A DNA stretch of 64,000 nt from Hydrogenophaga sp. (GTDB taxonomy: Bacteria; Pseudomonadota; Gammaproteobacteria; Burkholderiales; Burkholderiaceae_C), in contig NZ_JAHCKL010000014.1 in the NCBI RefSeq assembly GCF_026125785.1, forward strand, positions 1-64,000, in the 5' to 3' direction. The notes under the pieces were generated by a model that was not told the DNA's origin, made no database searches, and saw only the letters and a list, made by a program, of their open reading frames with translations. Shown in pieces: positions 38,803 through 40,801 of the stretch (positions are counted from its first letter, which is position 1; every line of letters begins with the position of its first letter). The translations under genes were made by a program, and so were the position numbers.

Positions 38803-39375
38803 AAAGCGGAACACCGCCGTGCTGGCCAGCAGGTTGGGCCAGCGGTGGATCTCCCGCCCTTCGTGCAAACCGAAGCTGTCCTCGATGGAGAGGCCATTGC
38901 GCCGCGCCAGCACCTCGAAGTCCGCATGCGTGCCCACACGGATATTGGGCGTGTCGTACCACTCGTAGGGCAATCGCTTGGTCACGGGCATGCGGCCGCG
39001 CAGCACCTGCAGACGGTTGGGCCAGTGCGCAAAGTTGGGGAAGGCCACCACGCCCAGCCGACCCACGCGGGCCGTCTCCCTCAACATGGTCTCGGCATTG
39101 CGCAGATGCTGCAGCGTATCGATCTGCAGCACCACGTCGAAGGCCTTGTCCTCGAACATGGTCAGGCCATCCTCGAGGTTGAGCTGCAACACATTCACGC
39201 CGCGCTGCAGGCAAGCCTGCACCTTGGCATCGTCGATCTCCACGCCGTATCCCGTGCAGGCACGCGTGGCCTGCAGATGGGCCAGCAAGGCGCCGTCGCC
39301 GCAGCCCAGGTCCAGCACACGCGAACCCGGCGGCACCAGGCGCGCGATCGGCTCCAGCACATGGCGCTCGCTCAT
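38794..39375 (-). CDS. metW: Methionine biosynthesis protein MetW
   Basis: A 193-residue class I methyltransferase-fold protein that pairs with MetX in proteobacteria and is needed for MetX acyltransferase activity in studied species. Motif I is [52 protein letters not shown] and [20 protein letters not shown] are characteristic of MetW. The start overlaps the metX stop by four bases (ATGA), so the two are co-translated under the riboswitch upstream of metX. Confidence 0.94.
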
Positions 39376-40562
39376 GCCGCCCCCCCGACCGTGTGCTCGA
39401 AGTAGCTGCGCACCGCCGCGTGGTAGCGTGGGTCGTCGAGCAGGAAGGCGTCGTGGCCATGGGGCGCATCGATCTCGCAGTAGCTCACGGCACGCCCGTT
39501 TTCCAACAGCGCCTTGACCATCTCGCGGCTGCGTGCAGGCGAAAAACGCCAGTCGGTGGTGAAGCTCACCAGCAGGAACCTGGCGCGCGCGCGCGCCAGC
39601 GCCGCGCTCAGCCGCCCCTCGTAGGAGCGCGCAGGGTCGAAATAATCCAGCGCGCGCGTGATCAGCAGGTAGGTGTTGGCGTCGAAGTACTCGCTGAACT
39701 TGTCGCCCTGGTAGCGCAGGTAGCTCTCGATCTGGAACTCGATGTCCTGCGTGCTGTAGCGGTAGCTCCCCTCGGCGGTGGTGCCGGCAACGGAAGCCCC
39801 ATCGTCCAGCAGGGCCTCGGCATCCCGCGGCCGCAGCATGCGTCCGAACTTCTCGTTCATGACATCGTCACTGAGGTAGGTGATGTGGCCGATCATGCGG
39901 GCGATGCGCAGCCCGCGCCGGGGCAGGGTACCGTGGCGCAGGTAGTGGCCGCCATGGAAATCCGGATCCGTCACGATGGCGCGGCGAGCCACCTCGTTGA
40001 AGGCGATGTTCTCCGCCGTCAGGTTGGGTGCGCTGGCGACCACCACCGCATGGCGAACCCGCTCGGGATACTGCAGCGTCCAGGACAGCGTCTGCATGCC
40101 CCCCAGGCTGCCGCCCATCACGGCCGCCAGGGTGTCGATGCCCATGGCATCGAGCAAACGGGCCTGGGCATTCACCCAGTCTTCCACCGTGACGACCGGA
40201 AAATCCGCGCCCCACGGCTCCCCAGTGGCGGGGTTGATGTGGGTGGGGCCCGTCGAACCGAAGCAGGACCCCAGGTTGTTCACACCAATGACGAACCAAC
40301 GGTCGGTATCCACCGGCTTGCCCGGGCCGATCATGTTGTTCCACCACCCCTCGCTGCGCGCGATGGTCTGTCCACCGGCATCCGCGTACCAGCCCGCCAC
40401 ATGGTGGGAGGCGTTGAGGGCGTGGCAGACCAGCACCGCATTGGTGCGCTCGGCGTTGAGCGTGCCGTAGGTCTCCACCGTGAGCTCATAGCTGGGCAGC
40501 ACAGCGCCGCTTTGCAGGCGCAATGGCTCGGTGAAAGAGAACGTTTGGGGTGTGACGATCAA
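39372..40562 (-). CDS. metX: Homoserine O-acyltransferase MetX
   Basis: First committed step of methionine synthesis, acylating homoserine with acetyl- or succinyl-CoA; many betaproteobacterial MetX enzymes use succinyl-CoA, and specificity cannot be read here. The 396-residue alpha/beta hydrolase has the nucleophile elbow [14 protein letters not shown], the oxyanion region [15 protein letters not shown] and the catalytic His in [13 protein letters not shown]. No ATG exists before the conserved start, and an in-frame TTG at 40616 lies inside the riboswitch terminator. The TTG at 40562, with GGAA upstream, begins [13 protein letters not shown] and is chosen. Regulated by the SAM-II riboswitch at 40634-40690. 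Confidence 0.93.
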
Positions 40563-40593
40563 GGCAAATTCCGCAACGGGCGGCCAGGCACCC

Positions 40594-40631
40594 AAGAAAA
40601 ATCCCGGTGGCGCCAAAGAGCGAGACCGGGA
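40594..40631 (-). terminator. Expression-platform terminator of the metX riboswitch
   Basis: On the minus strand, TCCCGGT (40631-40625) and ACCGGGA (40608-40602) form a 7-bp stem followed by TTTTTCTT. It lies between the SAM-II aptamer and the metX start codon, so SAM binding can lead to premature termination. The 5' arm is close to the aptamer's GGGGA, which could pair with TCCC to act as antiterminator. Confidence 0.8.
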
Positions 40632-40633
40632 AT

Positions 40634-40690
40634 CTCCCCTTTAGCGGCATTTCTAAAGCGCCCGCAATCGGAACAAATCGGCGCTGCTGG
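40634..40690 (-). ncRNA. SAM-II (SAM-alpha) riboswitch aptamer upstream of metX
   Basis: The minus-strand transcript reads AGCGCC, GATTTGTTCCGATTGC, GGGCGCT, then TTTAGAAATGCCGCTAAAGGGGA. P1 is AGCGCC/GGCGCT. From memory of the published SAM-II crystal-structure RNA, the conserved elements GAUUU...AUUGC in the loop, AAAUG, GCUAAA and the 3' G-run are all present with the same spacing. UUCC of the loop can pair with GGGA at the 3' end to form the H-type pseudoknot. Transcription probably begins within a few bases of 40689, so the aptamer is at the RNA 5' end, as is usual. It should lower metX-metW expression when SAM is high. Confidence 0.85.
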
Positions 40691-40695
40691 CGGCA

Positions 40696-40701
40696 AGTAT
40701 A
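40696..40701 (-). promoter_or_regulatory. -10 element of the metX promoter
   Basis: TATACT on the minus strand, seven bases before the aptamer. No good -35 is visible 16-18 bp upstream (CGCCAT), which suggests a weak or activator-assisted promoter. Confidence 0.55.
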
Positions 40702-40801
40702 GAGGCAAGCGCCGAGCCATGGCGCGCCGCCCTGAGCCCGAAACGCTGTTGTAAGCACGCATCGCCGCCGCGCAGGCCTTGCACATCCTGAAAAATTGTT
40801 A

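Follow-up and report, generated by a model that had tools for sequence, protein, structure and literature searches.

The metX and metW genes lie on the minus strand of the window, the 64,000-nucleotide stretch of a Hydrogenophaga sp. contig (NZ_JAHCKL010000014.1) that was analysed, and are preceded by a leader with a SAM-II-like pattern. Read 5' to 3' from 40701 to 40594 on this strand, the leader comprises TATACT, a 6-bp P1, AAAUG, GCUAAA, GGGGA, a 7-bp hairpin and UUUUUCUU. The P1 loop is 17 nt long (GAUUUGUUCCGAUUGCG), and the AUUGC of the expected pattern is also present in the minus strand. Every element described in the initial annotation, namely a SAM-II-like pattern after a -10 box followed by a 7-bp terminator, a U-run and a TTG start, is found in this strand. 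The features are as follows.

40701-40696, minus strand: -10-like box TATACT, read from the sequence, with the +1 assumed near 40689
40657..40685, minus strand: SAM-II P1 hairpin, AGCGCC (40685-40680) with GGCGCU (40662-40657), from the RF00521 match
40679-40664, minus strand: P1-loop motifs GAUUU (40679-40675), P2a 5' strand UUCC (40673-40670) and UUGC (40667-40664), from the RF00521 match
40645-40635, minus strand: 3' pocket strand GCUAAA (40645-40640) and P2a 3' strand GGGA (40638-40635), from the covariance model alignment
40646-40631 / 40627-40611, minus strand: predicted antiterminator of the SAM-free state, from MFE folds and duplex energy
40594..40631, minus strand: predicted intrinsic terminator, UCCCGGU (40631-40625) with ACCGGGA (40608-40602) and U-tract UUUUUCUU (40601-40594)
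39372..40562, minus strand: metX, start TTG at 40562, NF047916
38794..39375, minus strand: metW, overlapping metX by 4 bases, TIGR02081

The MetX protein is best fitted by the NCBIfam exception model for homoserine O-succinyltransferase (NF047916; 631.1 bits, cut-off 560). It scores below the cut-off of TIGR01392 MetX_acetyl (448 vs 500) and above that of the broader NF001209, which is named acetyltransferase (558, cut-off 331), and these profile matches suggest that its product is probably O-succinylhomoserine. MetW matches TIGR02081 with 235.8 bits (cut-off 189.5). The likely metX start codon is the TTG at 40562-40560, as the conserved MetX N-terminus begins there, while the TTG at 40616 given by mechanical ORF calling was rejected as it falls inside the terminator loop. 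No -35 match was seen upstream of TATACT. Of 103 distinct leaders from the family, 95 have a TA...T box (at least four of the six positions of TATAAT, between -20 and +5 relative to the aptamer match), a count without a shuffle control. A promoter and terminator pattern tool returned neither feature at the site under its narrow rules; for the terminator, this is because loops of 3-8 nt are allowed and 16 nt separate the two arms here.

The Rfam SAM-II model (RF00521) aligns over its full length (1-79) with positions 40694-40620 of the minus strand (33.2 bits, E 6e-6 in the 351 nt searched), the result on which the SAM-II reading of the initial annotation depended, though the score lies under the gathering cut-off of 36. 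As a consequence of this shortfall, a default Rfam scan at the gathering threshold lists no match in the whole window. P1, with GAUUU...UUGC in its loop, and the 3' GCUAAA are all in register, and the site precedes methionine genes, as is typical of SAM-II. When 40450-40800 was searched with 4227 Rfam families at E<=10, four matches were obtained, of which RF00521 is the sole riboswitch, and SAM-V, SAM/SAH and SAM-II long loops gave no match. The other three, anti-hemB (16.9 bits), MIR7510 and TB11Cs3H1 at 40585-40693, fall far below their own cut-offs and were rejected; the MIR7510 alignment happened to trace the outline of the antiterminator. The P2a strands UUCC and GGGA are complementary in the window. 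Among the other Burkholderiales families the P2a pair up5:down4 covaries (70% paired vs 46% permuted) and the register in the window agrees with it, while covariation of P2a gives no clear signal in the host's own family. Own and permuted P2a energies do not differ significantly in the family (-3.80 vs -3.65, sd 0.14) or in the other families (-2.80 vs -2.73, sd 0.17).

Across the whole genome (4.17 Mb), 40694-40620 is the best RF00521 match (E 1.7e-5), and the next reaches 14.8 bits, a gap of 18 bits. The sub-threshold score, along with a terminator that is unremarkable by shuffling when taken alone, could be read as chance similarity in a GC-rich leader, but the genome-wide E-value, the gap to the next match and the conserved place before metX contradict this and leave it a negligible probability. 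Within the family, 152 of 200 genomes carry an RF00521 match at E<=0.05, some of the weak ones being chance or of the metK type discussed below, and 50 exceed the cut-off; in a control set, two of 14 genomes match at E<=0.05 and none above the cut-off. A same-genus copy (G114) scores 36.2 bits. The gene context was read at 131 loci, consisting of the window and 130 among the matches listed in the family scan, leaving aside the lowest-scoring listed matches and G120, which is close to the end of a contig, and metX lies downstream in 120 of the 131. The 11 loci without it include the chance-like L104, L108 and L116 and the metK-type L115, L130 and L132. Of 80 named relatives identified through their MetX protein (Hydrogenophaga, Variovorax, Polaromonas, Rhodoferax, Malikia, Tepidimonas and others), 77 also carry the core motif just 5' of metX. 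The SAM-II class and the metX-metW target claimed at the outset are hence in agreement with the model match, the MetX and MetW profiles and the recurrent downstream metX, and the window RNA is most likely a real SAM-II riboswitch that would bind SAM.

In a sample of the order that includes a few members of the host's family, 92 of 200 genomes match RF00521 at E<=0.01. Ten downstream proteins were scanned. Nine belong to loci without metX in other families of the order; eight of these are O-succinylhomoserine sulfhydrylases (metZ) and the ninth is of the metH type. In another Burkholderiales family, the SAM-II match L234 occurs directly 5' of a metH-type methionine synthase, as judged from the N-terminal part that was scanned. 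L099 and L110 (G121:C1:1655340-1657333) are a pair of SAM-II-like copies in inverted orientation, separated by about 1.8 kb; their pocket letters are altered (CAAUUU, CAUGC), and neither is followed by metX.

The terminator hairpin in the window is 7 bp long, GC-rich and followed 3' by a U-tract, with an energy of -16.8 kcal/mol that is reached by 17 of 200 shuffles and is thus unexceptional taken alone. The argument for a terminator is for this reason based on the family, where 105 of 120 leaders carry a hairpin at least as stable as -8 kcal/mol followed by a T-tract; dinucleotide shuffling, repeated five times, gave 20-31 of 120. The terminator finder returned nothing for 11 of the 120, and in four others the hairpin is weaker than -8 kcal/mol. 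The proposed coupling of the aptamer to a terminator is supported by this count.

How the aptamer could act on the terminator is suggested by a second, alternative helix. In the window, 40646-40631 can pair with 40627-40611 through 16 bp with one bulge, in which GCUAAAGGGG pairs with CUCUUUGGC and its flanks in the terminator loop and CCC is left as the apical loop. This helix takes up GCUAAA and GGGG, the strands required for SAM binding, and its duplex energy of -19.3 kcal/mol corresponds to a z of -3.79 relative to shuffled hairpins. When the leader was folded at every third length from the assumed +1 at 40689, P1 plus this antiterminator is the MFE structure at sampled lengths of 79-91 nt (a shorter form at 76), that is, up to just past the synthesis of the terminator 3' arm. 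Between 94 and 103 nt the MFE structure switches, with the terminator at 94, 97 and 103 and the antiterminator at 100. In the leader ending after the U-tract, the enforced terminator (-33.9) is better than the antiterminator (-31.5) by 2.4 kcal/mol, and the best fold of this leader is without P1. Barring the aptamer core from pairing with other parts of the leader leaves the terminator as the remaining structure. In folds started 5 nt further upstream, at 40694, P1 is absent at all seven lengths tried.

The initial annotation had instead proposed that the GGGGA of the pseudoknot competes directly with the UCCC arm of the terminator. GGGG and UCCC lie near each other and are complementary, and a pairing of the terminator 5' arm (GGUGUCC) with the strand that follows the pocket (e.g. 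GGACGCC) also occurs in many relatives. The GGGGA/UCCC hairpin is weak here, however, with a best fold of GGGGAGAUUCCC at -3.1 kcal/mol vs the 16-bp alternative, and across the family the 12 nt after GCUAAA alone have a mean z of only -0.34 against the terminator (15/92). The proposal is only partly right; a switch by GGGGA on its own is improbable, and it is the pairing of GCUAAA that recurs in relatives. Measured over distinct platforms as pairing energy vs dinucleotide shuffles, GCUAAA+4 against the terminator hairpin gives a mean z of -2.06 in the family (58 of 100 platforms at z<=-1.65), -1.63 in the other families of the order (31/66) and -2.40 in the named relatives absent from the first set (37/54). 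Locus L253 did not fit the core pattern, nor did eight among 60 later loci (L280, L317, L320, L322, L326, L327, L330 and L331), and these scores exclude all nine. Outside the order, in a mixed group that is not purely of one class, the mean z is -0.08 and only four of 33 platforms reach -1.65. Seven other strands tried against the terminator in the family gave z between -0.34 and +0.70, and control strands (the P1 3' strand, GAUUU, the junction and reversed strands) gave no comparable signal there; elsewhere in the order, some controls fall below zero (junction -0.48, 14/66; reversed loop strand -0.55, 11/66).

The complement UUU[AG]G[CU] of the pocket strand is present in 44 of 103 hairpins, vs a mean of 7.9 and a maximum of 16 in 100 shuffles, and is located at the boundary of the loop and the 3' arm in 40 of the 44. 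Across 89 platforms anchored on this complement, named relatives included, positions 7, 8 and 9 (the G of GCUAAA being position 1) pair above within-group permutations, the observed value being reached by 0, 0 and 3 of 2000, and position 7 occurs as G-C, G-U, A-U, C-G and U-A; these platforms are related sequences rather than independent events. Position 10 shows no covariation in the same set (980/2000). In the family alone (44 platforms) position 7 remains clear (0/2000), the signal is weak at positions 8 (156) and 9 (101) and position 10 gives 750, while the 18 platforms of the other families alone show no covariation, their variation being too small to show any. Swapping terminators between loci was weakly discriminating, as members of a clade share their loops; the native partner ranked within the best 10% in 19 of 109 cases. 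An antiterminator formed from the pocket strand GCUAAA and the G-run is a well-supported prediction from these comparisons and constitutes the addition made by this analysis; no description of it was found in searches of openly licensed PMC papers.

A different strand may serve this role elsewhere in the order. In L218, L222, L228, L232 and similar loci of other Burkholderiales families, the terminator hairpins hold the complement of the aptamer loop strand (in L228, GUUCAGCUUGC / GCAAGCUGAAC), a second antiterminator type. The loop strand ending in UUGC has a mean z against the terminator of -1.24 in these families (26/66), compared with the reversed-strand value given above, and of -0.33 in the host's own family (11/100); the value outside the order is unreliable because the loop anchor is misplaced in at least five platforms.

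It is very probable, on the evidence assembled here, that a SAM-II aptamer switches transcription of metXW through competition between a pocket-strand antiterminator and the terminator. RNA polymerase would start a few bases 5' of P1. Without SAM, GCUAAA and the G-run would pair with their complement inside the terminator hairpin (40646-40631 / 40627-40611), a helix that could form before the terminator 3' arm exists, and transcription would continue into metXW. With SAM, GCUAAA-GGGGA would be locked in the P2 pseudoknot and the antiterminator blocked, so that the hairpin 40631-40602 and the U-tract would terminate transcription. Computation supports the SAM-II homology, the gene context, the terminator in relatives, the antiterminator complementarity and a partial covariation; SAM binding, the promoter, termination and the kinetic order are what we infer. 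The aptamer might alternatively act on translation or RNA stability next to a constitutive terminator, a reading with a precedent in Sinorhizobium meliloti metA, where, in the part of that report considered (PMC9373788), SAM-II is followed by a terminator not predicted to be SAM-responsive. The metX TTG, however, lies about 78 nt beyond GCUAAA and past the terminator with no close start codon, and the terminator hairpins of relatives hold a pocket-strand complement that a constitutive terminator would not need, making this reading rather improbable.

A related RNA precedes metK. Six weak family matches do so (L115, L130, L132 and L336-L338), while L339 is instead of the metX kind. The pattern GAGTTAN{2,9}ACTTGCAGRGCGAC has one match each in 83 of 200 family genomes, representing 62 of 141 genera, and its reversed control has none; metK follows each of the 26 metK-type loci that were inspected, which represent 24 distinct places. 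The loci named as this type are L115, L130, L132, L336-L338, L340-L359, L360 and L366-L369. The host's own genome has no match to a similar metK-type pattern and carries the variant form L360 on contig 9 at about 74244-74302 (G000:C9), shortly 5' of metK. The RNA has GAGUU where SAM-II has GAUUU. In 28 distinct sequences, whose selection pattern already prescribes GAGUUA, UUGC and GCUAAAGCGUUCGC, P1 ends with G-C (26/28) or A-U (2/28) and the P2a-like strands are GAGC/GUUC (17/28) or GAAC/GUUC (11/28); 24 of the 28 have, downstream, a GGCA[AG]CGC-like complement of GCGUUCGCC, and GCUCC stands opposite the ribosome site GGAGU in 17. Three of these sequences scanned with Rfam gave RF00521 as the sole riboswitch, sub-threshold at 24.0-26.8 bits. 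The metK leader is possibly a translational SAM switch. No description of it was found in the literature searched; Weinberg 2010 places further SAM-II examples in an additional file, according to the part of the text consulted (PMC2864571).

Burkholderiales SAM-II RNAs could form a lineage of their own, with metX/metZ terminator switches using the GCUAAA antiterminator (in other families also the loop strand UCAGCUUGC) and a second, still unassigned metK-type RNA with a changed third strand (GAGUU for GAUUU) and an apparent translational platform, although this is put forward tentatively, with the odds slightly against it. If true, one genome, this included, would use two SAM-II types, for homocysteine and for SAM synthesis. 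Independently of this scheme, the analysis would place the orphan metXZ element in a known riboswitch class, many members of which are missed by the Rfam threshold in these genomes, and offers a switch design, open to experimental test, that sets the SAM pocket strand against the terminator loop. It also flags a conserved metK leader in a group in which metK has no known methionine regulator, according to the part of Leyn 2014 drawn on here (PMC4239095).

A terminator-coupled SAM-II RNA in a betaproteobacterium was considered worth documenting in the initial annotation. Such RNAs are already known, in lineage and position: Corbino 2005 reports that many SAM-II RNAs are followed by putative terminators, with Bordetella bronchiseptica named in a figure legend (PMC1273637), and Barrick & Breaker 2007 describe SAM-II as most frequently terminator-linked in alpha- and beta-Proteobacteria (PMC2258182), each as read in part. 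The arrangement itself is found in the same part of Leyn 2014, where the betaproteobacterial metXW/metZ leader is a new 'metXZ' RNA with a pseudoknot and terminator, present in 10 of 11 Comamonadaceae genomes, with six conserved regions in its consensus and a proposed antiterminator from regions 3 and 4. The window RNA resembles it in betaproteobacterial host, position before metXW, predicted pseudoknot and terminator, and is itself a terminator-bearing leader of this kind. That part of Leyn 2014 reports SAM_alpha only in Rhizobiales and Rhodobacterales and does not apply this label to metXZ, and the window score lies below the Rfam cut-off, which would fit a distinct RNA class resembling SAM-II with another ligand such as SAH; but GAUUU, UUGC and GCUAAA are retained, the same-genus copy reaches the cut-off and a quarter of the family genomes exceed it, so that a separate class is very improbable. 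We take metXZ to be SAM-II because the gene targets, lineage and terminator agree, a comparison by description and not by letter-by-letter alignment. The window RNA is likewise similar in class, terminator and methionine genes to the S. meliloti metZ and metA SAM-II RNAs, of which that of metZ is predicted to be transcriptional in the part of the study cited (PMC9373788). With terminator-bearing SAM-II (SAM_alpha, RF00521) in general it shares P1, the pocket motifs, the gene context and the terminator. It differs in a short P2a and in a score lower than that of many matches outside the order, which reach up to 88 bits, and in the pocket-strand antiterminator signal, which is seen in Burkholderiales and in just four of the 33 platforms beyond them.
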